From an uncultured Ruminococcus sp. (GTDB lineage Bacteria > Bacillota_A > Clostridia > Oscillospirales > Ruminococcaceae): a DNA stretch of 18,922 nt. Below are positions 1 through 18,922 of the stretch, one piece after another; the stretch's first letter is position 1, and each line of letters starts with the position of its first letter. Under the pieces are notes generated by a model that made no database searches, was not told the origin of the DNA, and saw nothing but the letters and a program-made list of their open reading frames with translations. The stretch lies in NCBI GenBank assembly GCA_946629405.1, contig CAMOXW010000071.1, positions 1-18,922 of the forward strand, in the 5' to 3' direction. The position numbers were made by a program, and so were the translations under genes.

Positions 1-2
1 AC

Positions 3-569: not shown

Positions 570-574
570 TTTAC

Positions 575-602
575 TTGACAATACAGATATTTGTGGTATA
601 AT
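575..602 (+). promoter_or_regulatory. Sigma-A promoter of metY
   Basis: TTGACA at 575-580 and TATAAT at 597-602 are both exact consensus hexamers, separated by 16 bases. They lie 45 bases upstream of the metY start, leaving a leader of about 38 bases. That is too short for a SAM riboswitch or T-box, and none is visible. Confidence 0.85.
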
Positions 603-646
603 TATAAAGTACGCTTCTTGCGTAAATGATCATATGGAGGTTTAAC

Positions 647-1912: not shown

Positions 1913-1926
1913 GGTGATCCCTAAAG

Positions 1927-1961
1927 CTAATCAGGGCAGCTATTTGCTGCCCTTAGTTTTT
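1927..1961 (+). terminator. Rho-independent terminator after metY
   Basis: GGGCAGC (1934-1940) pairs with GCTGCCC (1946-1952) around the loop TATTT. The stem can extend through CTAA/TTAG. It is followed by a T-rich tail ending in TTTTT at 1957-1961, 15 bases after the metY stop codon. Confidence 0.9.
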
Positions 1962-2019
1962 GAAGTATATAATTAAATGAAAAATAATTTATTTGGACTT
2001 TTCAAACGTCCGGAAATGT

Positions 2020-2028
2020 GATATAATA
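2020..2028 (+). promoter_or_regulatory. Extended -10 promoter of the pcrA transcript
   Basis: TGA-TATAAT (2020-2028) is a full extended -10 element. No good -35 lies at normal spacing; TTTCAA at 2001-2006 is the nearest match, 16 bases upstream. The transcript would carry a ~75-base leader containing a small hairpin (2064-2083). Confidence 0.65.
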
Positions 2029-2111
2029 TATACTAAGGATATTATTTATACATAAGAAAACAGCCGGCACCTGATCGCGCCGGGAAATTTTTCATTAATT
2101 GGAGATTTGTT

Positions 2112-4475: not shown

Positions 4476-4509
4476 GCAGATGCAGCAATATTCAACAGGG
4501 GGCTAAATT

Positions 4510-5934: not shown

Positions 5935-5943
5935 TCAGGTTTA

Positions 5944-5969
5944 AAACGCTCCGCTGATACGGGGCGTTT
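5944..5969 (+). terminator. Hairpin after pyk, possible weak terminator
   Basis: AAACGCTCC (5944-5952) pairs with GGGGCGTTT (5961-5969), nine pairs including one G-T, around an 8-base loop. The only T residues are inside the stem and no T-run follows. It may only partly terminate transcription, leaving some readthrough into the phosphofructokinase gene. Confidence 0.5.
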
Positions 5970-6012
5970 CCCGGATATTTCCGGAATACAGACAAAATTG
6001 AGAGGGAAAATT

Positions 6013-7230
6013 ATGATGAACATTGCTGTTGCACAGTCCGGAGGTCCGACCTGTGCGATCAACGCTTCGCTCGTGGGAGTGTTCCGCGAATCACTGAAGG
6101 AATCCTCAATTGACGCGATATTCGGTTCGATAAACGGCATCGAGGGTATCATCCAGAACCACCTCATCGACATGAAGTCGATGATAACTACCAACGAGGA
6201 CATGGAGCTGCTTAAACAGACTCCTTCCACTGTTCTCGGCTCATGCAGGTACAAGCTCGCTGACTGGCGTGAGGACGATACCGTCTACCAGCAGATCGTC
6301 AGTACGCTGAAACAGCGTCAGATAGGCGCTTTCTTCTATATCGGCGGAAATGATTCAATGGATACCGTAAACAAGCTCTCGGAGTATTTCGCCGAAAAAC
6401 AGCTCGATATCAAGGTTGTCGGGATCCCGAAGACTATCGACAATGACCTTTGTGTTACTGACCATACTCCCGGCTTTGGTTCGGCTGCAAAATATGTTGC
6501 CGCAACAATGCGCGAGATCACCCGTGACAGTACAGTTTACAGTATCCCTTCGGTGACGATAGTCGAGGTCATGGGCAGACACGCCGGCTGGCTGACTGCT
6601 TCAAGTGCCGTCCTGCACGCGATAGGTGAGACCGCTCCGCATCTGGTCTATGTGCCTGAGGTGAAGTTCTCGATAGACAAGTTCCTGAAGGACGTCCGCG
6701 GACAGATGGCTAAGCACAAGGCTGTCATAATCGCGGTATCTGAGGGTATCGAGGTGCCGGAGGGAGTTCAGTCCGGAGTGGTTGATAATTTCGGTCACAA
6801 GTATCTCTCAGGCATAGGTAAGTACCTTGAATCCGTAGTTCGCAGCGAGATCGGCTGCAAAGTGCGTTCTATCGAGCTAAATGTTATGCAGCGCTGCTCA
6901 TCGCATATTTGCTCGGCAACAGACATCAGAGAGGCTGAGAGCATCGGAGCTGCCGGTGTGCGCTGTGCTCTTGAAGGCAATACCGGAAAGGTCGTAGTGT
7001 TCCGCAGAGTGTGCGAAAGTCCGTATACCACAGTGATAGACGTTGCCGATGCGTCTGAGATCGCAAATAAGGAAAAGTTCCTGCCTAAGAGCTACATAAA
7101 TTCATCAGGCAACAACATAAGCGATAACGCACTTGATTATTTCCTGCCGCTGATCCAGGGTGAGCCGAATCTCATTATGGAGTGCGGCCTGCCGAAGCAT
7201 TTTACGCTTCAGGAATCCGTTCTGAAGTAA
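6013..7230 (+). CDS. pfp: 6-phosphofructokinase, probably pyrophosphate-dependent
   Basis: It phosphorylates fructose 6-phosphate. The donor motif reads IGGNDS with Asp (about residue 114) where ATP-dependent enzymes have Gly (GGDGS). The following substrate loop is PKTIDND with Lys (about 140) where ATP enzymes have Gly. In the PFK family this Asp/Lys pair marks use of pyrophosphate, which would make the step reversible. TPGFGSAAKY, MGRHAGWL and the C-terminal half match the ~400-residue bacterial PPi-PFK group. ATG 6013 is chosen because AGAGGG (6001-6006) sits 6 bases upstream; ATG 6016 is equally possible and a TTG at 5998 is less likely. Donor use is inferred from motifs. Confidence 0.88.
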   Translation: MMNIAVAQSGGPTCAINASLVGVFRESLKESSIDAIFGSINGIEGIIQNHLIDMKSMITTNEDMELLKQTPSTVLGSCRYKLADWREDDTVYQQIVSTLKQRQIGAFFYIGGNDSMDTVNKLSEYFAEKQLDIKVVGIPKTIDNDLCVTDHTPGFGSAAKYVAATMREITRDSTVYSIPSVTIVEVMGRHAGWLTASSAVLHAIGETAPHLVYVPEVKFSIDKFLKDVRGQMAKHKAVIIAVSEGIEVPEGVQSGVVDNFGHKYLSGIGKYLESVVRSEIGCKVRSIELNVMQRCSSHICSATDIREAESIGAAGVRCALEGNTGKVVVFRRVCESPYTTVIDVADASEIANKEKFLPKSYINSSGNNISDNALDYFLPLIQGEPNLIMECGLPKHFTLQESVLK

Positions 7231-7256
7231 AGGCGTTATTTCGTTCACGGATCAAT

Positions 7257-7300
7257 AACCGTCCATAACGAAGGTCATCTTCTTATGGGCGGTTTTTATT
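7257..7300 (+). terminator. Rho-independent terminator after the phosphofructokinase gene
   Basis: AACCGTCCATA (7257-7267) pairs with TATGGGCGGTT (7284-7294), eleven pairs with one G-T. The loop itself can form a GAAG/CTTC stem. TTTTTATT follows. It closes the helicase/glycolysis stretch 26 bases after the last stop codon. Confidence 0.88.
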
Positions 7301-7307
7301 TATTCTG

Positions 7308-7394
7308 CAAGCTCAGCTTGTTCCCGCCTATGGCTGAGCTGCTCCGGCAAGGTTTCACGCAAGGAAGCCGGCTTATCCGAATATAGCGTATTCG
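7308..7394. repeat. Three consecutive stem-loops in the gap before spoIIGA
   Basis: Between the terminator and spoIIGA (about 300 bases without a gene) lie, in order: AGCTCAG/CTGAGCT (7310-7316 with 7334-7340), overlapping an alternative CAAGC/GCTTG hairpin (7308-7320); CCGGC/GCCGG (7344-7348 with 7367-7371); and CGAATA/TATTCG (7378-7383 with 7389-7394). The order and compactness suggest a dispersed intergenic repeat or a small structured RNA, but no second copy lies in this window, so repeat status is unproven. The antisense open frame here shows no protein-like features. Confidence 0.35.
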
Positions 7395-7449
7395 CTCAAA
7401 ACTGCGGCTTGATTGGCAGAAATTTTGTATATTATTTTTGGCACTTGCC

Positions 7450-7494
7450 TGTCGACCGTTTCCGGCATAATCTGCGCCCTCAATGGCATATAAT
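7450..7494 (+). promoter_or_regulatory. Candidate Spo0A-activated promoter of spoIIGA-sigE
   Basis: TATAAT at 7489-7494 lies 35 bases before the spoIIGA start. No -35 hexamer is recognisable at standard spacing. TGTCGAC at 7450-7456 matches the Spo0A box TGTCGAA at six of seven bases and sits near position -50. This resembles the known spoIIG promoter, where Spo0A-P replaces a poorly placed -35. The assignment leans on that precedent. Confidence 0.35.
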
Positions 7495-7528
7495 AACAAG
7501 TAGCAAGGGGGCGGAAGGAGGCCGTGAA

Positions 7529-8341
7529 TTGCAGACGATCTATCTTGATGTGCTGATAGTCCTGAATATCTATGTGAATTTTTTCCTGCTGCGGATAACC
7601 GCCGGAGTGACCCATTCTCCGCTGAAAAACAGCAGATGCGCTGCAGCCGCAGCCTATGGGAGCCTGTTTTCTCTGACAATAATTGCTCCGGAGCTCGGGG
7701 GAGTAATGTCAGCTCTGATACGCATTTTTGCAGCGGTCACCATAGTTATTGCGGCGTTCGGATATCACGGCAGACGAAGGCTTGCAGTGCTGACGGGAGC
7801 GTTCTTCGGGACAAATTTCGTGCTCGCAGGCACAGTATATGCGGTTTATTCATGGGCAGCGCCGGAGTTCATGCACTTCAGGAACTCTTACTTCTACATA
7901 GATTTTTCGCTGCTGATACTTATACTTACAACTGCGGGGCTATATGCGGCTGCGTATGTTGCCAGGTTATTTCTTGACAAAGCTCCGCCGGGCGGGAGCT
8001 ACCGTGTGCTGGTGAGATATCACGGGAGGGTGGTCAGCCTTGACGGTATCGCGGATACAGGCAACTGCCTTGTGGACTACTTCTCGGGCTCTCCGGTGAT
8101 AGTATGCGACACGGCGGGGTTTCCCGATATTCTGCCGGAAAACGGCGATAAGCCGGCGCGGGGATTCAGGCTGATCCCCTGCATGACGGTCTCGGACAGC
8201 GGAGTGATCCCCGTATTCCGCCCGGACGAGGTGATGATCCTCAACTCCGTGAGCGGCGAGCGAAGACCAGTCGATGCAGTGATAGGACTCGGCAAAAGCT
8301 CCGGCGGAGCAATATTCAATCCAAGATTACTCAGGCTTTAG
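7529..8341 (+). CDS. spoIIGA: Sporulation sigma-E factor-processing peptidase SpoIIGA
   Basis: This septum-membrane aspartic protease cleaves the pro-peptide of pro-sigma-E in the mother cell. The start is TTG 7529: AAGGAGG ends 7 bases upstream, and the protein then begins MQTIYLDVLIVLNIYVNFFL, the expected first membrane segment. The longer open frame back to 7409 has no ribosome site and an un-SpoIIGA-like N-terminus. The product is 270 residues, slightly shorter than Bacillus SpoIIGA (about 309). Several hydrophobic segments cover residues ~5-150, then a soluble half carries the protease motif ADTGN with the putative catalytic Asp at about 176. The ending VIGL..SGGAIFNP.LL is also family-like. 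sigE follows after 15 bases, the usual pairing of protease and substrate. Confidence 0.92.
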   Translation: MQTIYLDVLIVLNIYVNFFLLRITAGVTHSPLKNSRCAAAAAYGSLFSLTIIAPELGGVMSALIRIFAAVTIVIAAFGYHGRRRLAVLTGAFFGTNFVLAGTVYAVYSWAAPEFMHFRNSYFYIDFSLLILILTTAGLYAAAYVARLFLDKAPPGGSYRVLVRYHGRVVSLDGIADTGNCLVDYFSGSPVIVCDTAGFPDILPENGDKPARGFRLIPCMTVSDSGVIPVFRPDEVMILNSVSGERRPVDAVIGLGKSSGGAIFNPRLLRL

Positions 8342-8356
8342 AGGAAGGAGAAGTAT

Positions 8357-9055
8357 ATGAATATTCTGAAAAAAATGCTATGCAGAGTAAAAGCCTTATT
8401 ATCGGGGAGGATAGACTATATCAACGGCTCGGACACGCTTCCTCCGCCGCTTACAAGGGCGGAGGAAGAGGAGGTATTTGTCAGGCTCATGGAAAATGAC
8501 CCCGAGGCGCGAAACTGCCTGATCGTGCATAATCTCAGACTTGTGGTGTATATTGCAAAAAAATTTGAATCGACAGGCATCGGGATAGAGGACCTTGTAT
8601 CTATCGGGACTATCGGGCTTATAAAGGCGGTCAGGACGTTCTGCCCGACAAAAAATATCAAACTTGCGACCTATGCCTCACGCTGTATCGAGAATGAGAT
8701 ACTTATGTTCCTGCGAAAGTCCTCGCAGTACCGCAATGATCTCTCGATCGACGAGCCGCTGAACGTTGACTACGACGGCAATGAGCTTCTGCTCTCGGAT
8801 ATTCTCGGAACTGACGACGATATCGTGAACAAGGGTATCGAGACCGAGGCGGAGCGCGAAATACTGCGTTCGGCGGTGAGCGGACTGTGCGAGCGTGAGC
8901 GTGAGATAATGGAGATGAGGTTCGGTCTCATCAACGGCAGGGAAATGACTCAGAAAGAGGTCGCCGAGCAGATCGGCATATCGCAGTCATACATATCCAG
9001 GCTTGAAAAGAAGATAATCCGCAAGCTCCGTGTAAAGCTTGAAAGCATTACATAA
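8357..9055 (+). CDS. sigE: RNA polymerase sporulation sigma factor sigma-E (pro-form)
   Basis: This is the first mother-cell sigma factor of sporulation. The 232-residue product starts with a short basic/hydrophobic pro-sequence of about 20 residues, followed by the hallmark processing-site region [14 protein letters not shown]. Region 2 ([41 protein letters not shown]) binds core enzyme and -10 DNA. Region 4 ends in a helix-turn-helix ([21 protein letters not shown]) for -35 recognition. GGAAGGAG lies just upstream of the ATG, 15 bases after spoIIGA. In many relatives sigG follows directly; here a terminator and a convergent gene follow instead. Confidence 0.95.
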
Positions 9056-9061
9056 AATTAA

Positions 9062-9085
9062 GCCGCAGAGAATTGTCTCTGCGGC
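9062..9085. terminator. Bidirectional hairpin between sigE and the aldo/keto reductase gene
   Basis: GCCGCAGAG (9062-9070) and CTCTGCGGC (9077-9085) form a perfect nine-pair stem with loop AATTGT. It sits between two convergent genes, 6 bases from one stop codon and 8 from the other. Only short T-rich flanks are present on either side, so it probably serves both strands. Confidence 0.8.
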
Positions 9086-9093
9086 CCGTTTGG

Positions 9094-10089
9094 TTATTCA
9101 GTCAGTATTGCTTCTATTTTTGCGATCTCATCTGGAGTGAACGTAAGATTATCAAGTGCGCCTACGTTGTCGATTATCTGCTGCGGACGGCTTGCGCCTG
9201 CAAGCACGGTCGCAACAGCCTTGTTGTTGAGCAGCCATGCAATAGCCATCTGCGAGAGCTTCTGTCCGCGGCTGCCTGCGAGGTCGTTGAGACGGTTTAG
9301 TTTCGTCACCATAGCCTCGGTGAGCTGATCCTGTATCCATGTATTACCCTTGCCTATGCGGGAATCAGCCGGGATGCCGTTGAGATACCTGTCCGTGAGG
9401 AAGCCCTGGTAAAGCGGGGAGAATACCGCAAGTCCGAGCCCATTTTCTTCGCACATCCTGTCAAGTCCGTCCTCCTCGACCCAGCGGTTGAGCATGGAGA
9501 ACGACGGCTGATTGATGATGAACGGAGTGTGGAGCTCGCGGAATATTGCGAGTATCTCAGCAGTCTGGGCGCTGTTGTAGTTTGAAACTCCGACGTACAG
9601 TGCCTTGCCCTGACGGACTGTGTGGTCAAGTGCAACTGCAATTTCCTCCGCAGGTGCTTCCGGGTCGTAAACATGGTGGTAGAAGATGTCCACATAGTCA
9701 AGCCCCATACGTTTGAGGCTCTGGTCGAGCGAGGCAATGAGATACTTGCGGCTTCCGTGCTTGCAGCCGTAGGGACCGTCCCACATTTCGTAGCCTGCTT
9801 TTGTGGAGATGCAGAGCTCATCGCGGAAACGACGGAGCCCGCGGTCGAGGATCTTGCCGAAATTTTCCTCAGCAGAGCCATTGTACGGCGAGCCGTAGTT
9901 ATTTGCAAGGTCGAAGTGGTTAATGCCGAGATCGAAGGCGGTGCGGCACATATTCTCAGCGTTCTCGAGCGAGCCTCCGAAGCCGAAATTCTGCCAAAGT
10001 CCGAGGGAAATCGCGGGAAGCTTGAGACCGCTTTTGCCGACGCGGTTATAGATCATTTTGCTGTATCTGCTTTCGTCAGGTGTATACAA
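9094..10089 (-). CDS. Aldo/keto reductase, YghZ-like
   Basis: It is a cytoplasmic NADPH-dependent oxidoreductase that reduces small aldehydes or ketones. The 331-residue TIM-barrel sequence shows the AKR tetrad: Asp60 and Tyr65 in FDLANNYGSPYNG, Lys97 in ISTKAGYEMW and His138 or His139 in IFYHH. GSRKYLIASLDQSLKRMG and the C-terminal VLAGASRPQQI cofactor region are also family-typical. The pattern STKAGYEMWDGPYG resembles E. coli YghZ (L-glyceraldehyde 3-phosphate reductase), but the natural substrate cannot be read from sequence. The start is TTG 10089, preceded by AAAGGAGGG with 6 bases between. It has its own perfect promoter but could also receive readthrough from the B12 operon, since no terminator is seen between them. 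Confidence 0.9.
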   Translation of the reverse strand: MYTPDESRYSKMIYNRVGKSGLKLPAISLGLWQNFGFGGSLENAENMCRTAFDLGINHFDLANNYGSPYNGSAEENFGKILDRGLRRFRDELCISTKAGYEMWDGPYGCKHGSRKYLIASLDQSLKRMGLDYVDIFYHHVYDPEAPAEEIAVALDHTVRQGKALYVGVSNYNSAQTAEILAIFRELHTPFIINQPSFSMLNRWVEEDGLDRMCEENGLGLAVFSPLYQGFLTDRYLNGIPADSRIGKGNTWIQDQLTEAMVTKLNRLNDLAGSRGQKLSQMAIAWLLNNKAVATVLAGASRPQQIIDNVGALDNLTFTPDEIAKIEAILTE

Positions 10090-10120
10090 GGTCAGCCCTC
10101 CTTTGAATATTAGTGATTAT

Positions 10121-10149
10121 ATTATACACTGTGAAGGGGAAGGTGTCAA
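10121..10149 (-). promoter_or_regulatory. Sigma-A promoter of the aldo/keto reductase gene
   Basis: On the minus strand TTGACA (10149-10144) and TATAAT (10126-10121) are both perfect, with a 17-base spacer. The promoter lies 32 bases before the TTG start codon and 21 bases after the S-component stop codon. Confidence 0.88.
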
Positions 10150-10169
10150 GAGCCTGACTGAAAAATTCC

Positions 10170-10856
10170 CTAAACACCGTACTTTATCCTGATACGCTCA
10201 AGCTTTTCGCCGAAGGGCTTAGCAAGAAGCGTCAGGAACAGTACGTTCGATACCGCATACGACATCGTATACGGTACTGCGGTCATCATCGCCGCAAGGT
10301 ACAGGTCAGCCCGGAAACCCTCCGCGTACCACAGAACAGTCCAGATGTCCATTATCATCGAGTACGCAACGCCGGCGGCTGCACCGTATATCAGCAGAAG
10401 GAGCCGACTGCGTTTCAGCGGCTCTGAGAGCAGTCCCGCGATCAGCCCGATCATTCCCCACGCAAGCATCTGAAAAGCTGTCCACGGTCCCTGCCCGAAA
10501 TAGAAATTTGACAGCACTGCCGAGAGCGATCCGACAAGGAAACCCGCTTCTCCCCCGAGATACAGAGCTGTGATTATCGTCAGTGCGGTTATTGGTTTAA
10601 GGAACGGTATGAACCTCCCCGCGAAGCACAGTGCGGTCATGACGGCAACTATCACCATGCGTCTTGTGCCGGTGGAGCGTCGCTCGAAGCCTGCCGCAAA
10701 TAGCAGCAGCGCAAGAACTGCAACTACAAGCGAGATTATGATATGCCGTTTTTTGTCAAATGCAAGCGCTCCGATGACCGTAACAGCAGGTATTATCACG
10801 AACGGTACGGCGATTCTTATCGTGTTCCGCAGTGCCCGGCTCTTTATTACTATCAT
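10170..10856 (-). CDS. ECF transporter substrate-binding S component, probably for cobalamin/corrinoid
   Basis: S components are small membrane proteins that bind a vitamin and dock on the shared EcfT-EcfA module. This 228-residue protein has two extra N-terminal hydrophobic segments (about 12-32 and 38-56). The core starts near residue 66: MTALCFAGRFIPFLKPITAL, ALYLGGEAGFLVGSLSAVLS and NFYFGQGPWTAFQM (117-130), then further membrane segments. The GRF.P..KP, GG..GF..G and FGQGPWT..QM pattern fits ECF S components. It is the last gene of a B12-riboswitch-led operon, and its ATG overlaps the EcfA stop codon (ATGA). Specificity for B12 or a precursor, as known for CbrT of Lactobacillus delbrueckii, is inferred from context, not from binding residues. 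Confidence 0.8.
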   Translation of the reverse strand: MIVIKSRALRNTIRIAVPFVIIPAVTVIGALAFDKKRHIIISLVVAVLALLLFAAGFERRSTGTRRMVIVAVMTALCFAGRFIPFLKPITALTIITALYLGGEAGFLVGSLSAVLSNFYFGQGPWTAFQMLAWGMIGLIAGLLSEPLKRSRLLLLIYGAAAGVAYSMIMDIWTVLWYAEGFRADLYLAAMMTAVPYTMSYAVSNVLFLTLLAKPFGEKLERIRIKYGV

Positions 10857-12487
10857 GAAGCGCCTCCCGGACTGTTCAGGCGGCAGAGCCTTGCAGCGTC
10901 ATCAATGGTGACTGCCCTCTCGAATATCCCTCTTGTCATGCGGCTGACTGCCGTCGTGTAAAAACTGTTTGCGGAGAAAAATTCCGCAGGAGCGCCGGCT
11001 GAAACTATCTGCCCGCCGAAGAACATCGCGCACCTGTCAGCGCAGGCTGCTGCAAATTCAACGTCGTGGGTGACGGCAACTACCGTCATACCACTGTTCC
11101 TGAGTTCCCTGAGGATGCGGATAATATTGAGCTTAGTGGCTGCGTCCATTCCCTTTGTAGGCTCATCAAGAAGCAATATCCGCGGCTTTGCGGCAAGAAC
11201 CTTTGCAAGCGCTGTAAGCTGCTGTTCACCTCCGGAGAGGTCGTAGGGATGCTTGTCAAGGAGCTGTGACAGGTCATAGGGGAGTGTTGAGATATCCGCC
11301 CCCGCATCGGCAAGCTCCTCGCGGACGGTATTGCAAAGGAAAACAGTCTGGACGTCCTGCGGGAGCATTGCAAGACATTCGCGGTAGAGTGAGCGGTTGC
11401 GGTAGTCCTTCAGCTTCTTCCCGAAAACGCGGATAGTCCCGCTGTAAGGCCGTATCAGTCCCGCTGCGGCAGAGAGTGCCGTGGTCTTCCCGGAGCCGTT
11501 TCCGCCGAGGATGCAGAAAAGCTCCCCCTGATAAATTTTCAGGTCAAGTCCGCAGAGGACGTCCGGCAGCTCACGCTCATACCGGAAGAAGACCTCCCGG
11601 AATTCAAGCGCACTATCGCTGTGCAGAGCAATTTCCTTCTGCGGGAGCGAGGTGACTTTCCCAGCGAAATCCCGCGTGATATAGTCCCTGCCTTCTCTTA
11701 CGGTAAGCGGACATTTTCCGACAGCGCCGAGGGCGGCGTATAGCCTTGATGCAGCCGGCATACCGCAGAGGATGTCCGCTCTTTCGCGCAGCTCAGTGAT
11801 AACGTCACGCGGAGCACCGTCTGCTATGAGCCTGCCCTTTTCCATGACAAGCAGCCTGTCACATATCGGCACGACGTCCTCGAGCCTGTGTTCGGCAAGT
11901 ATAACTGTTATGCCGAAGTCCTGATTGAGCCTTTTCAGTGTTGCGATGAAGTCCGCAGCAGCTATCGGGTCGAGCTGCGCTGTCGGTTCGTCAAGGATGA
12001 GCACCTCCGGCCTCATGACAAGCACAGCAGCAAGATTGAGAAGCTGCTTCTGACCGCCGGACAGCTCTGCGGTATCGCTGCCGTACCAGCTTATTATGCC
12101 GAAATAGCTCGCTATTTCGGCAGTTCTCCGGGCAATCTCATCCGGCGGAACACCCAGGTTTTCCAGCCCGAAGGCAAGCTCATGCCAGACCTTGTCGGTT
12201 ACGATCTGCTGCTCGGGCTTCTGCATAACGAAGCCTATCCTTGAAGCAGAGTCGGCCTCTGTAAGCTTTTCAAGAGGTGTGCTTCGGTAGAGGACTTCCC
12301 CCGAAATATTGCCGTTCGGGACAAGCCCGCGTTTCATCATTCGCAGGAGAGTTGACTTCCCGCTTCCGGTAGCACCGCAGAGAACTGCGAATTCACCCTG
12401 AGTGATGCCGAGCGAGACATCCCTGACAGCAGGCTCGCTGCACAAGGGGTAGCTGAACGTCAGATCCTTGATTTCAAGTATTTCCAC
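10853..12487 (-). CDS. ecfA: Fused double ATPase subunit of an ECF transporter (EcfA1-EcfA2)
   Basis: This is the ATP-hydrolysing part of the importer, with two ABC domains in one 544-residue chain. Domain 1 has Walker A GATGSGKST (38-46), signature LSGGQ (142-146), Walker B VLILDEP (162-168) and switch His200. Domain 2 has GGNGSGKTT (328-336), LSGGE (417-421), LLLDEPT (438-444) and His474. Both keep all catalytic residues. I place the start at GTG 12487, preceded by GGAGG and beginning MEILEIKDLTFSYP. An in-frame ATG at 12556 would add 23 unlike residues and has no ribosome site. The gene overlaps the end of ecfT by 28 bases, suggesting translational coupling. Most ECF systems use two separate ATPases; the single-chain form suits a dedicated transporter with its own S component. 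Confidence 0.92.
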   Translation of the reverse strand: MEILEIKDLTFSYPLCSEPAVRDVSLGITQGEFAVLCGATGSGKSTLLRMMKRGLVPNGNISGEVLYRSTPLEKLTEADSASRIGFVMQKPEQQIVTDKVWHELAFGLENLGVPPDEIARRTAEIASYFGIISWYGSDTAELSGGQKQLLNLAAVLVMRPEVLILDEPTAQLDPIAAADFIATLKRLNQDFGITVILAEHRLEDVVPICDRLLVMEKGRLIADGAPRDVITELRERADILCGMPAASRLYAALGAVGKCPLTVREGRDYITRDFAGKVTSLPQKEIALHSDSALEFREVFFRYERELPDVLCGLDLKIYQGELFCILGGNGSGKTTALSAAAGLIRPYSGTIRVFGKKLKDYRNRSLYRECLAMLPQDVQTVFLCNTVREELADAGADISTLPYDLSQLLDKHPYDLSGGEQQLTALAKVLAAKPRILLLDEPTKGMDAATKLNIIRILRELRNSGMTVVAVTHDVEFAAACADRCAMFFGGQIVSAGAPAEFFSANSFYTTAVSRMTRGIFERAVTIDDAARLCRLNSPGGAS

Positions 12488-13338
12488 CTGAGACTTACCT
12501 CCGTTTCGATGATGACCGGCAGCGCTGCGAGCAGGCAGAACGCCGCTATGCCGCATTTCCCCAGAACACCGGTTTTTTCGCTGCGGACTGCCGGATAGAA
12601 GCTGAATGCGAGCTCTCCGGAAATAAGCGCAGTGATGCAGATACAGAGCAGCAAAAGTGTTGCCAGCAGCATCAGGATATCGTCCCGTCTGAACCGGAAG
12701 CGCTTCATCTGTGTGCGCCGGTGAATTCCGTAGCCGCGCGCCGCCATGCTGTCAGCGGTGATAATGCCGTTTTCGAGTCCCCATGTTACGAGTATCGAGA
12801 ATATCCTCATTCGTCCGCGGATATCGTCGATGATGTTGTCGTCCTTGAACAGTCCCATTGCGGTCTGCGAGCTTCTGACGCGCTTTGACTGCCGGTTGAA
12901 CAGTGGAACGAAGCGTATCGCCATTGACAGCACCAGTGAGAGCTTCGGCGAGAGCGCTCCGACGGCATACAGCAGCTTTTCACTTGTCATTATCTGCGTG
13001 AACGAGCGGAACCAGTACAGGACACCGACTATCATTGCGGCTGAATTTATGCCATAGAGCAGTGCTTCGAGCGTGACGGGATTGTCGTTCATGATGAACA
13101 GCACGGTCACTCCGTTGTGTGACATGAGAGGATTTGCCGCTGCCAGTATCACAAAGAGTATGAAGAAAAAAAGATGCGATTTAGCGTGCCTGCGGCGGTT
13201 CCTGACAAGATACAGCATTACCGCTCCGGCAAGCGATATTGCCATGAACGGCGGGTATGACGAAAACATTGCAATGCCGGTAACGCTGAAAAAATAGATT
13301 GCAATAACGATCGGGTTGAATTCCTGAAAGCTCCTCAT
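12460..13338 (-). CDS. ecfT: ECF transporter transmembrane coupling protein EcfT
   Basis: EcfT couples the ATPases to the S component. The 292-residue product has several membrane helices (about 10-45, 55-70, 88-110, 215-240 and 250-275). A cytoplasmic helical region holds the coupling helix motif MAARGYG (Ala-Arg-Gly at 200-202), the hallmark that fits into the ATPase groove. LSMAIRFVPLF (137-147) is another family pattern. The second Ala-Arg-Gly coupling motif is less clear: the corresponding segment reads QSKRVRSSQTAMG. The ATG overlaps the stop codon of the preceding gene (ATGA), and the 3' end overlaps ecfA, so it sits mid-operon. Confidence 0.9.
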   Translation of the reverse strand: MRSFQEFNPIVIAIYFFSVTGIAMFSSYPPFMAISLAGAVMLYLVRNRRRHAKSHLFFFILFVILAAANPLMSHNGVTVLFIMNDNPVTLEALLYGINSAAMIVGVLYWFRSFTQIMTSEKLLYAVGALSPKLSLVLSMAIRFVPLFNRQSKRVRSSQTAMGLFKDDNIIDDIRGRMRIFSILVTWGLENGIITADSMAARGYGIHRRTQMKRFRFRRDDILMLLATLLLLCICITALISGELAFSFYPAVRSEKTGVLGKCGIAAFCLLAALPVIIETEVSLRWKYLKSRI

Positions 13339-15200
13339 TGTTCGTATACCTCATTAAGGTCGTGACCAAGTTCGCAGGTGTAGAGCCATTCTATGCGGTC
13401 ACCGTCGCTGAGGACGTACTCGCCGCAGCCGCGGGAGGGAGTGATGCCGTTGACATGATATACCCAGCCGGAAAGGTCGCCGAAATCCATTTCGTAAAGA
13501 TAGTTTATCCCGGCGATGTAGACCATGCCGTGAGCTGAGCCGGCGCTTCCCTTGTTTTCAACCTGTATGTGGTAAGCGCGTGCAGCCTCTATGAGAATAT
13601 CGTAAGCTGTCTCGCCTTCCTCGATATCGAACTCGGTAACGTCAAGGATAATGCCGTCGTCCGGGATGAACTCAGAGTTGAGCCTGTCTGCCACTGTGTC
13701 ACAGCGGATAGTCATAGTTACCGTACCTATGGCGTTTGCCTTGTGCTTTTTCTCACCGGTGTAATAATTGTCAGTGGACTGGAAATCCGTGACGAGGATG
13801 AAGACGGCAGCTCCCGCAGATACAGCGCCTATTGCTATGAAGTTCTTGTAATTTCGCTTTCCTGCAGCAAATGTGATGAGCGAGAGGACAGAAGCAGCCC
13901 CGACGGTAACAGCTATCGCTTTGCCCTTGTAGCCGCCGTGGGAGTCGTCCGTGGTGCCTGCCGCAGCGGATATAGTTGAAGTTGTCGGAGCTGCGGCGGG
14001 CAGGGAAGTTTCCGTTGTCTGTGCCGGCTGAGACGAGGTCAGGGATGAAGTGGTCATTGCCGGAGCGGAGGTCACTGACGTAACGGTAGTTGTTACGGTT
14101 TCCGCAGTCGTCTGCGAAGCTGAGGCTGACTGTACCGCAGCGGTTGTATTTGTGACGTTCGTCTGGGATTGTGCGTCTGATGAGGCAGCTGTAGTGGTGA
14201 CAGTAGTTGTGACGGCAGTGGTGACGGTCACTTCCTGCGGCTTTCTGTTATCAAGGACGAGCAGGGGAGACTGCCGGCGCAGAAGCCGAATGTAAGCCAC
14301 ATATGAGTAATAAGCCTGAACGGTCGCAGTTGTATTTGAAGCACCGCCTGCTGTATGGCAGTAGCTGCCGTCAGGAAGCCTGTAGGAGAGCATTGCGTCA
14401 ATGATGTTGCAGCCGTTTTTGATGAACCGCTCGTCCTTCTGGCAGTCGATACCGAGGGCGGAAAGTGCGGTAAGTACCTGCGCTGCACTTTCGGGATTTT
14501 GCGTACCGAAGCTGCTGTAGCCGCCGTTTTCCTGCTGACGCTCCGAGAGGAAGGCAAGAGCCCTGTCAGCAGCCTGTCTGACGTCTGCATCCGTGCTGTA
14601 ATACGGTGCAAGTGCCTGCAAGGTCATAGCGGTAACGTCAATGTCGCCGTTTTTGCCGAAAAGTGCCCAGCCTCCGTCTTTATACTGCATGGACAGCAGT
14701 TTCCTGACCGCGCCGTCTGCCGTAAATCCGGGAGCGGTATAGCCGTTGTTCATGATATGCAGAGCGTATATCCAGCTCATAATGCCTTGCTTACCGGCTG
14801 AATTTTCAAGCGCCTCAGTGATATAAGAGTCGCTGCTGCCGGCTGCGATGAAGGCGAGGGCGTACTTTTCCTGCGAGGTTGCGGAAAGCCCGGTCTTTGT
14901 GCTGAGGTAGGCGCGCAGAGCCTTCTCATAGGACGAAAAACTGCGCTCTCCTGACTGGCTGAGCCCGAGTATGAACCATTCCGAGGAAATTCCGGCATTT
15001 TCCGTGAGACTGCCGTTTATCCAGTCCTGAATACTGCCTGAGCCGGTAGAATCAAGCTCATAACCGACGATACCGCCGGCAAGATCCTCGACCTCGCCGA
15101 CGGTATATCCAGCGCCTTCGGCGTTCATCCTGAAAAAGCCGAGGCAGAGTATTAATGTGAACAGGCAGCACAGGGAAGTGGAGACTGCCTTATTCCTCAT
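13335..15200 (-). CDS. Membrane-tethered transcobalamin/intrinsic factor-like protein: alpha/alpha-barrel plus DUF4430 domain
   Basis: I propose a surface corrinoid-binding protein feeding the downstream ECF transporter. Residues 1-30 look like a signal peptide. Residues ~35-310 contain prenyltransferase/squalene-cyclase-type repeats, for example LLSMQYKDGGWALFG, LSERQQENGGYSSFG and MLSYRLPDGSYCHTAG, each followed by a helix. Residues ~322-420 are a Ser/Thr-rich linker. Two membrane segments follow (about 427-446 and 454-472) with a short basic turn, then a C-terminal DUF4430 domain (about 492-615: DLSGWVYHVNG..., LSDGDRIEWLYTC). InterPro names that domain transcobalamin-like C-terminal, and animal B12 carriers pair an alpha6/alpha6 barrel with it. 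The cyclase acid motif DxDD is changed to DIDV, so terpene cyclase activity is unlikely. The gene overlaps its upstream neighbour by 11 bases and ecfT by 4. B12 binding itself is inference. Confidence 0.75.
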   Translation of the reverse strand: MRNKAVSTSLCCLFTLILCLGFFRMNAEGAGYTVGEVEDLAGGIVGYELDSTGSGSIQDWINGSLTENAGISSEWFILGLSQSGERSFSSYEKALRAYLSTKTGLSATSQEKYALAFIAAGSSDSYITEALENSAGKQGIMSWIYALHIMNNGYTAPGFTADGAVRKLLSMQYKDGGWALFGKNGDIDVTAMTLQALAPYYSTDADVRQAADRALAFLSERQQENGGYSSFGTQNPESAAQVLTALSALGIDCQKDERFIKNGCNIIDAMLSYRLPDGSYCHTAGGASNTTATVQAYYSYVAYIRLLRRQSPLLVLDNRKPQEVTVTTAVTTTVTTTAASSDAQSQTNVTNTTAAVQSASASQTTAETVTTTVTSVTSAPAMTTSSLTSSQPAQTTETSLPAAAPTTSTISAAAGTTDDSHGGYKGKAIAVTVGAASVLSLITFAAGKRNYKNFIAIGAVSAGAAVFILVTDFQSTDNYYTGEKKHKANAIGTVTMTIRCDTVADRLNSEFIPDDGIILDVTEFDIEEGETAYDILIEAARAYHIQVENKGSAGSAHGMVYIAGINYLYEMDFGDLSGWVYHVNGITPSRGCGEYVLSDGDRIEWLYTCELGHDLNEVYEQ

Positions 15201-16110
15201 TTTTCTTTCTTACAGTGAAAGCAACTGCTGCGGCAGCCGCGAGTACGGCGAATGTCACGCCTGCGCCTGTGTCGCCTGTGGGCGGATTGGAATCGCCTGT
15301 AGCGGGAGCGTTGCTGCCTGTTGAGACCGATGAAGCAGTATTTGTGGAAGTTGCAGATGTAGTAGTTGTTGTTGTGGTGGTAGTAGTGGAAGTATCAACG
15401 GAAGCGGTGTTTCCGCTTACTGTTGCCACAACAGCGTTGGGAACGAGGATCATTGATTCGGAGGTCGCACCGATGTTGAACTTTCCGGCACTTTCAAGCT
15501 TTACATTGACCTTACCCTCTGAATCAGTCACAAAGCTCGTAGCTTCGCCGTTTACAGTGATAACGGCACCCTCGACCGGGAGAGTGACAGGATTCCAGTT
15601 CGCATCGTATCCGGCGCGTGAAAGTGTAAGAGCAAGCTCCTGACCGGCTTCGACCTCAGCCGTATATTTGTCGAAATAGAAGTAAGCATCTGAGAAAGCT
15701 GTTGTGTCCGAGTAAACGAAAGCATTTATGTAGTCGCCGCTCTTTATCTCGTCAGCGAGTCCCATAGCGGCTGTATTATTCACATAGTAGCCGAAGCTTC
15801 CGCCGTTTTCGATGCCCCAGAGCTTGTCCAGAGCGAGGCCGTAAGTTCCTACTGACGAAGCATAGCCGGCAGCAGCACCGCCTTCAAAGTTATTCTCATG
15901 AGCGATGTAGAGAGCGTCGTTGATAGTGAGCTTTCCGTCGCTGTCGATATCAGTAACATTTACCTCCTGCTGGATGAGGTCGAGCTTGTCCTTTCCGCTT
16001 GAAATGGTGACGTAAGCCTTGCACTCAGTACCCTCAGCGGCAGCACTTACAGAGCTGACAGCAGGGCAGGCAAGAAGCAGAGCCGAAGCTGCAATGATGA
16101 TCTTTTTCAT
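15190..16110 (-). CDS. Secreted surface protein with DUF4430-like region, calcium loop and sortase-like anchor
   Basis: This is the first gene of the B12-riboswitch operon. The 306-residue product has a clear signal peptide (MKKIIIAASALLLACPAVSS..., cut near residue 24). Residues ~28-145 include a dockerin/EF-type calcium loop DIDSDGKLTINDA (54-66). The stretch GGSFGYYVNN...SGDYINAFVY (103-133) mirrors GWVYHVNG...SDGDRIEWLY of the neighbouring DUF4430 domain, so I read it as a related beta domain. Residues ~150-230 look like an Ig-like or carboxypeptidase-regulatory beta module. A Thr-rich run (241-251) leads to NPPTGD (275-280), a hydrophobic stretch and RKKNEE, the layout of a sortase sorting signal though not canonical LPXTG. 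The ribosome site is GGAG. The likely role is wall-anchored capture of B12 upstream of the transporter; this is inferred from operon and fold resemblance. Confidence 0.7.
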   Translation of the reverse strand: MKKIIIAASALLLACPAVSSVSAAAEGTECKAYVTISSGKDKLDLIQQEVNVTDIDSDGKLTINDALYIAHENNFEGGAAAGYASSVGTYGLALDKLWGIENGGSFGYYVNNTAAMGLADEIKSGDYINAFVYSDTTAFSDAYFYFDKYTAEVEAGQELALTLSRAGYDANWNPVTLPVEGAVITVNGEATSFVTDSEGKVNVKLESAGKFNIGATSESMILVPNAVVATVSGNTASVDTSTTTTTTTTTTSATSTNTASSVSTGSNAPATGDSNPPTGDTGAGVTFAVLAAAAAVAFTVRKKNEE

Positions 16111-16140
16111 ACTTATTCTCCTTAATTGTAATTACAGACC

Positions 16141-16170
16141 AAAACAAAAAACGCCGGAAATACCGGACGT
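16141..16170 (-). terminator. Intrinsic terminator of the B12 riboswitch expression platform
   Basis: On the minus strand ACG(T)CCGG, loop TATTT, CCGGCGT forms a seven-pair stem with one bulged T, followed directly by TTTTT and then GTTTT. It lies between the aptamer and the first gene, 30 bases before its start codon. This is the expected position for ligand-controlled termination. Confidence 0.8.
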
Positions 16171-16271
16171 CAGGGCGCAAAGCTAAGACCCGCCTCCATT
16201 CGCGGAGGTGAGCAGAGCAGCTCCGTTTTCCCATGTCCGAAAACGCCAGAACGCTGTGTTCTGAGATCTGC

Positions 16272-16360
16272 AAGTCTGACGAGCGACCCGGCTCGGGATT
16301 TCCCACACGGTAGTGACTGCTGCGGCGGATTCTGACCGCACTTCCCTCAGTTTCAGACTT
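16272..16360 (-). promoter_or_regulatory. Cobalamin riboswitch aptamer
   Basis: The outer stem P1 is perfect: AAGTCTGA (16360-16353) pairs with TCAGACTT (16279-16272). Inside, the order of conserved blocks matches the cobalamin aptamer core: GAGGGAAGTGCGGT, then CAGAATCCGCC, a CACTACCGTG block corresponding to the B12-box ACTGT region, and a 3' GTCAGACTTGC corresponding to the usual CAGA..CTGC. At about 89 bases it is a compact version without large peripheral arms. It sits immediately after a perfect promoter and before a terminator and a transporter operon. Ligand type (adenosyl- or methyl/hydroxo-cobalamin) cannot be read reliably. The covariance-model score was not computed. Confidence 0.82.
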
Positions 16361-16368
16361 CTTAGCTT

Positions 16369-16397
16369 ATTATAACACTATTGTAAGTGGTTGTCAA
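16369..16397 (-). promoter_or_regulatory. Sigma-A promoter of the B12 riboswitch operon
   Basis: On the minus strand TTGACA (16397-16392) and TATAAT (16374-16369) are exact with a 17-base spacer. Transcription would begin near 16362, just before the aptamer P1 stem. It lies 46 bases downstream of the truncated cotJC stop codon. Confidence 0.9.
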
Positions 16398-16442
16398 GTT
16401 TATTTTAAATATAAGCAGCTCGGAGAAAGTTTACAGATTCAA

Positions 16443-16556
16443 TTATATCTTTATGGTATCCGGACCGCCAAGCTGTGAAATGATGATCTTTGCCATTTTT
16501 GCGTTTGGTGTCTTGATATTAACGGGGTATTGAAGTTTCTTCTCATACATCCACAT
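16443..16556 (-). pseudogene. cotJC: Truncated cotJC remnant (N-terminal 37 codons of a spore-coat manganese catalase-like protein)
   Basis: The frame starts MWMYEKKLQYPVNIKTPNAK and continues to SQLGGPD, closely matching the start of CotJC, which normally runs on for about 190 residues with a ferritin-like di-manganese domain. Here the match stops after GGPD (codon 33), adds TIKI, and ends at TAA. None of the metal-binding helices remain. GGAG is still well placed before the ATG, and the start is 3 bases after the cotJB stop codon, so translation could still occur. Downstream sequence changes within a few bases into the B12 operon promoter region, which suggests a deletion or rearrangement endpoint. 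I did not find the missing C-terminal part in this window. Confidence 0.8.
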
Positions 16557-16559
16557 AGT

Positions 16560-16808
16560 TTAGCTCCTTTCCCACGGCCACGGGTCGCTGATCCAGTTCC
16601 AGCTTAGCGGGTCGGTGTTGGCGTCGGGGGTAAGAGGGCCGAATTTCGCTGTATACTCGCTTACAGCCTCGCGCCGGAGGCTTGTATAATTGGAGTAGAG
16701 CGCAAGGGCACGGCGGCATTTCGGGTGGGTATCAAGGTAGAGGTTGAGCTCCTTGATCGCAAAGTCATACTTCTTGATCTTGGTGAGAAGGATATTTTTC
16801 TCATTCAT
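16560..16808 (-). CDS. cotJB: Spore coat protein CotJB
   Basis: This is a small 82-residue spore coat component. It shows the family patterns YDFAIKELNLYLDTHPKCRRAL, a central Tyr-rich helix, FGPLTP and the C-terminal WNWISDPWPWE. The ATG at 16808 overlaps the cotJA stop codon (ATGAATGA, 8 bases), and GGAGG lies just upstream. A longer in-frame extension back to 17012 is shadow sequence within cotJA. The protein normally acts with CotJA and the CotJC catalase-like protein, of which only a remnant follows here. Confidence 0.9.
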   Translation of the reverse strand: MNEKNILLTKIKKYDFAIKELNLYLDTHPKCRRALALYSNYTSLRREAVSEYTAKFGPLTPDANTDPLSWNWISDPWPWERS

Positions 16809-17055
16809 TGCGGGCGCCTCCTCTGCCGAATGGAAGGTCGAGCGCGGGGAAAAGCGTTCCGGCGCACAGTGCGTCGTCCTCGCTGTAGACCTCGCCCCAC
16901 TGCTGGAACGGCACATATGCCATTGCAAGGGGCGTATTTTCCGGGAAGCGCGGCATAGGCGCGTCCGCGGGTATATTCTGGGCGCTGCGTGAAAGATAAT
17001 TTTCACGCTCACGCATTATTGATCCGCTCATATTGTCAAACAGGTCAAGGTTCAT
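16801..17055 (-). CDS. cotJA: Spore coat associated protein CotJA
   Basis: The 84-residue protein carries the CotJA core: AMAYVPFQQWGEVYSEDDAL followed by AGTLFPALDLPF. The N-terminal ~35 residues are variable and polar. The start is ATG 17055 with GGAGG 6 bases upstream. It is the first gene of the cotJ operon, made in the mother cell during sporulation in Bacillus and Clostridia, and fits with spoIIGA-sigE elsewhere in the window. Confidence 0.9.
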   Translation of the reverse strand: MNLDLFDNMSGSIMRERENYLSRSAQNIPADAPMPRFPENTPLAMAYVPFQQWGEVYSEDDALCAGTLFPALDLPFGRGGARNE

Positions 17056-17106
17056 GATCGTCCTCCTTTCGTTTTCGCGGAGAACAGCGGAGCTCTCCGC
17101 ACGTTT

Positions 17107-17134
17107 TATGATATGCCGCGTGGGAGGGAAGGGT
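17107..17134 (-). promoter_or_regulatory. Candidate mother-cell (sigma-K/sigma-E type) promoter of cotJA
   Basis: On the minus strand CATATCATA (17115-17107) fits the sigma-K -10 pattern CATAnnnTA exactly and the sigma-E -10 (CATACAAT) partly. An AC dinucleotide lies 17 bases upstream (17134-17133). Between it and cotJA the leader can form a GCGGAGA/TCTCCGC hairpin. No sigma-A promoter is seen. The motif is short, so confidence is low. Confidence 0.35.
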
Positions 17135-17205
17135 GACAGGTATTACAAAGGAATGTAATTCCGGCACTCTGAAAGCCTGCGGATTACTTAAGCTTTTCAT
17201 TATAT

Positions 17206-17234
17206 TTGACATACCCGCCATGATGCTGTATAAT
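17206..17234 (+). promoter_or_regulatory. Sigma-A promoter of the spermidine-synthase-like membrane protein gene
   Basis: TTGACA (17206-17211) and TATAAT (17229-17234) are exact, with a 17-base spacer and a TG just before the -10. Transcription would begin near 17241. This rules out the upstream in-frame start at 17133 and supports ATG 17268. Confidence 0.88.
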
Positions 17235-17267
17235 ATATATTACATAAATATTGAAAAGAGTGAATAT

Positions 17268-18878
17268 ATGGAAAAGAAAAGCAAGCTTTTAGGCAATAAG
17301 CTATACCTCTACCTTACGGAGTTTTTTGCCGGTATGTCTGTGATGGCGGTGGAGCTCGGGGCAAGCAGACTGCTCGCACCGTATTTCAGCTCCTCTCAGA
17401 TAGTGTGGACTATCATCATCGGCACTATCATGATAGCTATGGCACTCGGCAATTACTTCGGCGGAAGGTGGGCGGACAAGTCTCCCGATCCCGACAGGCT
17501 CTACAAAAGGATCCTCATTGCCTCGGTCTGGATAGCTGCTATACCATTTCTGGGAAAATTCGTGATACTCGGAGTTTCCGCGCTGCTCGTCGTGACGGTG
17601 AACACGAATTTCCTGATATGGGCGGCATTTCTGTCGTGCATGGCGGTCTTTGTGTTCCCGCTTTTCCTCCTGGGAACGGTCACTCCATCGCTTGTCAAGT
17701 ACACCACTGACAGCCTCGACGACAACGGAAAGACTGTCGGTACCCTCGGAGCCTTCAACACCATCGGCAGCATCATCGGGACCTTCGCCCCGACCTTTAT
17801 TACTATCCCTACGGTCGGAACGGCTGTTACATTCCTGATATTTTCCGGTATACTGCTGCTCCTCGGGATCGTCTACTTTGTTTCGTGCAGGCGTAAGAAG
17901 GTACTTGTCGGCGTGACTGCGGCAATGTTCGCGGCGTGCTGTGTGTTCAGCAATACGCTCGGCTTCGCCTTCTGGGAGAAGGACCTTGTCTACGAGGGAG
18001 AGAGCGTCTACAATTATCTTCAGGTAACCGAGGACGATGAGAAGGTCATTCTTTCGACAAACGTGCTGTTCGGCGTCCAGTCAGTGTATATGAAAAACGG
18101 CGGTCTTACCGGGCTTTACTACGATACCGCAATGGCTGCACCGCTCATGTCCGGAGGCGGCGAAAGAAGCGATATCCTTATCCTCGGAAACGGTACCGGT
18201 ACCTATGCAAAGCAGTGCAGGAGGTACTTCCCGGAGGTCGGCGTGAAGGGCGTTGAGATCGACGAGAAGATCACCGAGCTTGCCTATAAATATTTCGACC
18301 TTGACGAGGATATCGAGGTCGTCACCTACGACGGCAGAGCCTTTCTTAACGGCTTGAAAAAGGACAGCGGCAGCACGAAATACGACGTTATCATGGTCGA
18401 TGCCTATCAGGATATCACAATTCCCTTCCAGATGTCATCGGTCGAGTTTTTCAGGCTTGTGAAGGACTGCCTCAGCCCCGACGGCGTCATGGTCGTTAAT
18501 ATGAATATGCACTCCGACCGGAAGGGAAGCATAAACTATGCCATCAGCGATACGATATGCGAGGTATTTGACTATGTGTATACCGCGAATGTTCCCGGCT
18601 CAACGAACCGCGAGCTGTTTGCCTCGAACAATTCGGCTATGCTGCGGAATTTTGCCAATAATCAAGCAAAGCTCACCGACAGCGGCCTCGCCGATGCTAT
18701 GCACAGCGTCGATGTCCGGCTCGAGAGATACGAAAGTCAGGGGACTGTCCTCACCGACGACAAAGCTCCCGTTGAACTGCTCGGAATGAGAGAGATAGAC
18801 AGCCGTATCTCCGACGAGCTCGAACACTACAGGCAGCGCTTCGACGAGGACGGCTTCCGCGGTCTCATCGACGACTGA
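17268..18878 (+). CDS. Membrane protein with C-terminal spermidine synthase-like Rossmann domain
   Basis: The 536-residue product has an N-terminal membrane half (about residues 12-230, some seven hydrophobic segments). It includes patterns seen in fused MFS/spermidine synthase-like proteins: FAGMSVMAVELGASRLLAPYFG-like start, GNYFGGRWAD (61-70), GTVTPSLVK and GAFNTIGSIIGTF. The soluble half (about 240-536) resembles spermidine synthases and methyltransferases: ILILGNGTGTYAKQ (304-316), acidic VEID (329-332), TYDGRAFL and IMVDAYQD (375-382). The glycine loop reads GNGTG rather than the GGGDG of true aminopropyltransferases, so polyamine synthesis is uncertain. The ATG is chosen from the promoter position; its ribosome site is weak (AAGAG). 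It is a stand-alone gene divergent from cotJA. The tail carries many acidic residues. Confidence 0.8.
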   Translation: MEKKSKLLGNKLYLYLTEFFAGMSVMAVELGASRLLAPYFSSSQIVWTIIIGTIMIAMALGNYFGGRWADKSPDPDRLYKRILIASVWIAAIPFLGKFVILGVSALLVVTVNTNFLIWAAFLSCMAVFVFPLFLLGTVTPSLVKYTTDSLDDNGKTVGTLGAFNTIGSIIGTFAPTFITIPTVGTAVTFLIFSGILLLLGIVYFVSCRRKKVLVGVTAAMFAACCVFSNTLGFAFWEKDLVYEGESVYNYLQVTEDDEKVILSTNVLFGVQSVYMKNGGLTGLYYDTAMAAPLMSGGGERSDILILGNGTGTYAKQCRRYFPEVGVKGVEIDEKITELAYKYFDLDEDIEVVTYDGRAFLNGLKKDSGSTKYDVIMVDAYQDITIPFQMSSVEFFRLVKDCLSPDGVMVVNMNMHSDRKGSINYAISDTICEVFDYVYTANVPGSTNRELFASNNSAMLRNFANNQAKLTDSGLADAMHSVDVRLERYESQGTVLTDDKAPVELLGMREIDSRISDELEHYRQRFDEDGFRGLIDD

Positions 18879-18922
18879 CCTTTATTTGTATGGGGTAGTT
18901 TGTACGGCTATCGCTGGGGGAA

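Follow-up and report, generated by a model that had tools for sequence, protein, structure and literature searches.

A candidate transcobalamin-like surface system for corrinoid capture and import in an uncultured Ruminococcus

INTRODUCTION

How might a Gram-positive gut bacterium, a type of cell in which surface capture of vitamin B12 is little described, collect corrinoids from its surroundings? The question is raised by a locus of an uncultured Ruminococcus sp. (assembly GCA_946629405.1, contig CAMOXW010000071.1, positions 1–18,922 of the forward strand; this whole stretch of 18,922 nucleotides is called the window). In the list of open reading frames of the window, the minus strand carries five neighbouring, overlapping genes, which encode in order an NPXTG-anchored surface protein, a two-domain transcobalamin-like protein (TCL), and the EcfT, fused EcfA-EcfA' and S components of an energy-coupling factor (ECF) transporter. 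An earlier, sequence-only reading had proposed that TCL follows the two-domain plan of animal intrinsic factor and transcobalamin in an operon led by a cobalamin riboswitch. Our analysis indicates that the operon probably encodes a bacterial transcobalamin-like surface system for the capture and import of corrinoids (B12).

RESULTS

Architecture of TCL

TCL is encoded at 13335–15200 (621 aa), as the sequence-only reading had stated, and its description of the protein holds up. Cyclase-type repeats had been placed at residues ~35–310; AlphaFold2 (AF2) predicts an alpha toroid at residues 34–307, with block mean predicted local distance difference test values of 78–97, mostly >90, and we assign the alpha/alpha toroid to residues 31–315 (14256–15110). 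Residues 135–267 match SQHop_cyclase_C in Pfam (28.1 bits, cut-off 26.1), and Prenyltrans matches were also obtained. The C-terminal DUF4430 domain that had been named is found by PF14478 at residues 529–608 (13377–13616; 53.3 bits, cut-off 23.8, E 3.9e-14), and it is fused to the toroid in all 29 TCL family members scanned. Hydropathy indicates a signal-like N-terminal hydrophobic segment and two transmembrane segments, as would be expected of the secreted, membrane-tethered protein envisaged earlier. The latter are also helices in the AF2 model, at residues 424–445 (13866–13931) and 451–470 (13791–13850). The loop between them, AAGKRNYK, is basic, suggesting a hairpin with its turn on the cytoplasmic side. 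DxDD is the defining motif of class II terpene cyclases. At its position the window TCL has DIDV, as had been observed, and DxDD was found within residues 31–320 in none of the 29 family members.

When TCL was compared with the PDB by Foldseek, ranks 1–7 were taken by rat and human transcobalamin, intrinsic factor and haptocorrin. These alignments span 607–626 columns and cover both domains, at low TM-scores.

Among the best 120 of 1042 relatives, the nearest are 66% identical to TCL, P0001 aside, a database protein that differs from the window protein at one residue. Its relatives place the window among Ruminococcus of the rumen and gut. Partial TCL relatives of 34–44% identity are also encoded in three unannotated faecal records labelled 'Bacteriophage sp.' (MT837027.1, MT835727.1 and MT839226.1), which could be mis-sorted bacterial contigs or phage cargo.

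The ECF transporter and its S component

A full ECF transporter had been claimed downstream on the same strand, and all of its parts were found. EcfT (12460–13338) is assigned from gene order and from its only Pfam match, CbiQ (PF02361), at 23.7 bits, just under the cut-off of 25. The fused EcfA-EcfA' ATPase (10853–12556, true start uncertain) matches TIGR04520 (338 bits, cut-off 315) and contains two ABC_tran stretches. Two EcfA ATPases and EcfT are thus present, as in the CbrT-type ECF B12 transporter. The S component (10170–10856) matches 6fnp_A by phmmer (E 9e-9). A family profile of 18 sequences reaches 6fnp_A at E 1e-18 over residues 61–227, with the next S component, 4hzu, at 0.0067. 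By these comparisons S is nearest to CbrT, and 6FNP is ECF-CbrT, a transporter of cobalamin and cobinamide (PMC5997447). The S component of the window has ~60 extra N-terminal residues, including two hydrophobic segments, ahead of the CbrT-like core; those of two relatives (L044 and L126) begin without this stretch. The extension could be a docking site for the transmembrane hairpin of TCL.

Of the best 80 among 237 relatives in genome contigs, 67 loci keep the order NPXTG–TCL–T–A–S along a single strand, and 71 keep TCL–T–A–S. The 13 exceptions to the five-gene order include contig ends, loci with no NPXTG match, the rearranged L044 and six TCL–S pairs. In these pairs (L045, L046, L048, L049, L051 and L071; the contig of L051 ends there) TCL is directly followed by S, and nothing else in the locus retrieved matches T, A or NPXTG. 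TCL therefore keeps company with S even where the ECF module sits elsewhere, and the two-gene unit probably borrows a shared ECF module.

The wall-anchored protein

The first gene of the operon (15190–16110) encodes a 306-aa protein that the earlier reading had overlooked. Its NPXTG sorting signal spans residues 275–304 (15199–15288) and is recognized by NF033846 (30.9 bits, cut-off 23.5). The signal is preceded by a transcobalamin-beta-like domain at residues 28–135 (15706–16029) and an Ig-like domain at residues ~142–233 (15412–15687). By its predicted structure the former has the transcobalamin beta-domain fold (CATH 2.170.130.30), and relatives of the protein occupy the equivalent position in other loci. 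With this wall-anchored beta-domain protein, the system is predicted to have two receptors, this protein and TCL.

Sequence comparisons of the NPXTG protein returned little. PF14478 gave no match at E ≤ 0.1 and PDB sequence searches nothing significant, and in hhalign of full A1 against A2 the anchor/transmembrane region alone was aligned. A solved relative of the beta fold from R. gnavus (3u7z, RUMGNA_00854) is titled 'putative metal binding protein', and no function for it was found in the portions consulted of the literature linked to that structure. CATH 2.170.130.30 includes 3u7z together with the beta domains of transcobalamin and intrinsic factor (PMC13385337).

The leader

The operon is preceded by a sigma-70-type promoter, TTGACA-17-TATAAT (16369–16397), a consensus match at 12/12 positions located just upstream of a cobalamin (adenosylcobalamin, AdoCbl, type) riboswitch aptamer (16241–16372). 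At the Rfam gathering thresholds the window riboswitch has no match. At relaxed thresholds RF01482 (AdoCbl) aligns over model positions 1–149, its full length, at 16372–16241 (33.9 bits against a gathering score of 50; E 1.2e-4). A model of our own, R1, was therefore built from the leaders of 21 relatives, with the window excluded, and used to search the window and the 80 loci. R1 matches the window at 16225–16378 (100.6 bits, E 1.3e-20; E-values are rough for this tool). It matches 61 of the 81 sources, once each, and in the 60 loci the match always lies upstream on the operon strand, separated by 64–773 bases from the first operon gene that was matched. The E-values are ≤ 1.3e-7 for 52 of the 61 matches and 0.0046–0.44 for the remaining nine. 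All 21 training loci were matched, as expected by construction, together with 40 of the 60 other sources.

In an alignment of the 61 leaders, itself fitted to R1, standard pairs make up 96.6% of pair cells, and in 11 of 18 pairs both partners vary among the 60 distinct leaders. The covariation score is 0.328, compared with 0.124 after shuffling and ≤ 0.072 with partners slid. Taken by itself, the leader has an ordinary folding energy (z -1.25). As an independent check, RF01482 was run over 30 operon-bearing genomes. Thirteen have a match, coordinates place it on the operon leader in 8 of the 30, and in one relative (G026/L073) it scores 53.8 bits on the operon leader, above the gathering score. 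The relaxed RF01482 match, R1, covariation and the 30-genome check together argue for a divergent AdoCbl-type riboswitch. The riboswitch of the sequence-only reading is thus present, in a form that Rfam detects weakly.

DUF4430 and toroid proteins across Clostridia

A survey of 79 genomes of the class Clostridia, with RF00174 under stricter filters, found DUF4430 in 40 and a cobalamin riboswitch in 63. Of 94 DUF4430 matches, 55, from 29 of the 40 genomes, follow a cobalamin riboswitch of the same strand at a distance of 0–8 kb; the other 39 do not. Conversely, 34 of 128 riboswitch matches have DUF4430 downstream. In these counts multiple DUF4430 hits in one long protein are taken separately, and genome G001 is scored as a miss despite its operon. 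The rough chance expectation is 0.0026 per hit, and chance co-location was rejected on this basis. Together with the R1 result, these figures show that homologues are not consistently found away from B12 genes, the outcome that would have told against the earlier proposal. That proposal of an intrinsic-factor/transcobalamin-like plan gains support from the structural ranking of TCL, the riboswitch linkage and the CbrT-like S component. DUF4430 matches were also seen in the control genomes Lactococcus lactis and Methanosarcina acetivorans.

For 30 of the surveyed genomes the best DUF4430 locus, ~3.2 kb long, was examined: a relative of the alpha toroid is present in 24 cases, EcfT in 20, EcfA in 19 and S in none. 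The last count reflects the short loci, and a few of the matches are self-matches, some queries having come from the same genomes. Twenty longer stretches were then chosen for context, not at random, and Pfam was applied to ten proteins from five of them. A recurrent layout begins with a large DUF4430 protein and an alpha-toroid protein, continues with a further DUF4430 protein whose N terminus has a hydrophobic stretch, and ends with EcfT and EcfA. What TCL joins in a single chain is therefore often held by two neighbouring genes.

PF01122, the alpha-domain model of the animal carriers, has six matches in 5 of the 79 genomes and exceeds its cut-off in one genome. Five of the six matching contigs also have DUF4430, and all six a cobalamin riboswitch match. 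Excised SLH-type alpha domains match PF01122 at E ≤ 0.01 in 5 of 6 cases, a result that is not independent, since five of the six had been preselected by PF01122. Two SLH-type relatives exceed the cut-off. A 1395-residue protein (L115:5124–9311) combines PF01122 (residues 681–863; 51.4 bits, above the cut-off) with DUF4430 (1038–1110) and SLH, and shows two beta-like stretches by eye. It comes near to what could strictly be called a bacterial transcobalamin. BLASTP aligns TCL with it at 32% identity over 102 residues (E 6e-7).

Genomic setting

B12 gene tests on 12 operon-bearing genomes, taken from 30, found a B12-binding domain in all 12. CbiD and CobS were each found in 10 of the 12, so that salvage alongside synthesis is likely in many relatives. 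The two genomes without CbiD and CobS are G028 and G001, the latter having one of the TCL proteins closest to that of the window; genome incompleteness may account for the absence.

Outside the operon, 7409–9055 was recognized by eye as containing a SpoIIGA-like gene and, after it, the gene for a sporulation sigma factor, and a CotJA gene (PF11007) lies at 16801–17055. These genes point to a spore-forming lineage. Divergent from the CotJA gene, 17133–18878 encodes a membrane protein with a spermidine-synthase-like domain (PF01564).

DISCUSSION

Weighing the evidence

Several results count against a corrinoid capture system and have to be set beside those above. The TM-scores by target for the B12 carriers are only 0.29–0.46, a terpene cyclase at Foldseek rank 8 (E 8.7e-5) nearly ties with rank 7 (E 7.6e-5), and the DUF4430 beta part of TCL is predicted by AF2 with low confidence. 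For the alpha domain alone, VIA puts terpene cyclases first, its best rows being cyclases and sugar epimerases; that no B12 carrier occurs among the 50 matches listed is not evidence against a likeness to such carriers. PF01122 matches 0/29 TCL proteins (E ≤ 0.003, full list of 10 families), and TCL is therefore not classed as a member. The alpha domain is recognized by terpene-cyclase profiles instead, and a TCL profile run against PDB sequences has significant matches to cyclases only (drimenyl diphosphate synthase and squalene-hopene cyclase chains), with none to transcobalamin or intrinsic factor. For the NPXTG domain, the transcobalamin beta domain is only rank 13 in Foldseek, and hhalign against DUF4430 is not significant. 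A profile of six bacterial PF01122-like domains finds no transcobalamin in the PDB, and phmmer of one such protein reaches it only at E 0.27. Sequence homology to the animal carriers would for this reason rest on PF01122 and DUF4430.

The regulatory evidence has gaps of its own. The window aptamer falls below the RF01482 gathering threshold, RF01482 is matchless genome-wide in 17 of the 30 operon-bearing genomes, and RF00174 finds nothing in G001, missing the leader of an operon that is present. Riboswitch linkage is absent in 11 of the 40 DUF4430-bearing genomes. R1 finds no leader in 20 of the 80 loci: four with <130 bases of contig ahead of the first gene matched (L027, L039, L050 and L054), the six TCL–S pairs, and ten without explanation. 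The presence of CbiD and CobS in 10 of the 12 relatives tested also means that import is not their sole corrinoid source.

The alternative that survives best, though an unlikely one, is that the resemblance is one of fold only: common scaffolds would then bind another ligand (a glycan, peptide or cofactor), or serve in anchoring or sensing for the transporter. The leading VIA rows, the failure of PF01122 on TCL and the 39 DUF4430 matches lacking a riboswitch would fit this. Such a scaffold leaves the riboswitch linkage and the CbrT-like S component unaccounted for, as well as the PF01122 matches of some relatives beside cobalamin riboswitches and the match of two different proteins of one operon to B12 carriers.

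Less probable still is a B12-regulated ECF system for cobalt (or nickel) uptake, whose surface proteins would scavenge the metal. Cobalamin riboswitches regulate cobalt importers too, CbiQ is the sole Pfam match of EcfT, and the title of 3u7z speaks of metal binding. CbiQ is, however, the general EcfT family, S matches CbrT at E 1e-18, and the closest folds with two domains belong to carriers of B12 and not of metal ions; cobalt transport was rejected. An enzymatic role of TCL in prenyl or terpene processing, its place in the operon being a coincidence, is hardly credible: its SQHop_cyclase_C and Prenyltrans matches and its sequence likeness to cyclase chains are outweighed by the predicted export and tether, the missing DxDD motif, the invariable DUF4430 fusion and the B12 operon setting.

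A model for capture and import

A corrinoid capture and import system could work as follows. At low intracellular adenosylcobalamin the riboswitch would permit expression of the operon. The NPXTG protein would be exported and fixed to the cell wall, its predicted beta domain acting as an outer corrinoid trap. TCL would be exported and held by its transmembrane hairpin, with the toroid and the DUF4430 domain facing outward on flexible linkers, and the two domains may close over a corrinoid like those of transcobalamin. TCL would then pass the ligand on to the CbrT-like S component, and reorientation of S by the EcfT/EcfAA' module would release it inside. In a more general form, which we find plausible but put forward tentatively, Gram-positive bacteria would relay B12 at their surface through transcobalamin-like parts: corrinoids would be trapped by a carrier anchored to the wall or S-layer, taken over by an alpha-plus-beta carrier tethered to the membrane and imported by ECF-CbrT, the animal and bacterial proteins sharing a common, possibly bacterial, ancestor.

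If this is true, the large set of DUF4430 genes in Clostridia acquires a function, competition for corrinoids in the rumen and gut would involve a Gram-positive receptor comparable with BtuG, and where intrinsic factor and transcobalamin came from turns into a testable question. The putative capture proteins are small, predicted to be exported and readily assayed.

Comparison with known systems

Parts of this picture are already on record, namely the relation of DUF4430 to transcobalamin domains and the idea that a cobalamin ECF system may include a further lipoprotein. DUF4430 is described as the C-terminal domain of TCN proteins (PMC4350170), and the database name of one TCL relative (P0056) starts 'Transcobalamin-like C-terminal d'. 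Some Gram-positive bacteria use variations of known B12 machinery, one of them an ECF transporter (PMC6977713). A bacterial two-domain transcobalamin plan with a role in B12 capture was not found in searches of the open-licence PMC literature.

The animal carriers transcobalamin, intrinsic factor and haptocorrin (PF01122 plus DUF4430) likewise consist of an alpha toroid followed by a DUF4430-type beta domain on a flexible linker. TCL differs in being bacterial, in a linker that contains a transmembrane hairpin, in an alpha domain that PF01122 does not recognize, and in its tie to an ECF importer rather than an endocytic receptor. ECF-CbrT of Lactobacillus delbrueckii (6fnp) likewise comprises a complete ECF module, and its S component is a homologue of that of the window. 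The operon described here differs from it by including the ECF module, by the fused ATPases and N-terminally extended S component, and by two putative surface capture proteins; the portion consulted of the CbrT account mentions no capture protein, though a cbrS is located in that gene cluster (PMC5997447).

In Lacticaseibacillus rhamnosus, K8Q211 is labelled 'Additional lipoprotein component of putative cobalamin ECF transporter', and a separate DUF4430 protein of unknown function lies beside rtpR (PMC9963975). The likeness of K8Q211 to TCL is one of label, and the part of that paper concerned with it gives no alpha toroid, wall-anchored partner or binding. BtuG of the Bacteroidetes is a capture protein exposed at the cell surface and associated with genes for B12 transport, and is a lipoprotein with a seven-bladed beta-propeller (PMC6143338). 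No such propeller appears in the AF2 models of the present proteins, which comprise a toroid plus small beta domains. In contrast to BtuG and BtuB of Bacteroides, the candidate receptors of this Ruminococcus would place an alpha toroid and beta domains on a Gram-positive surface.
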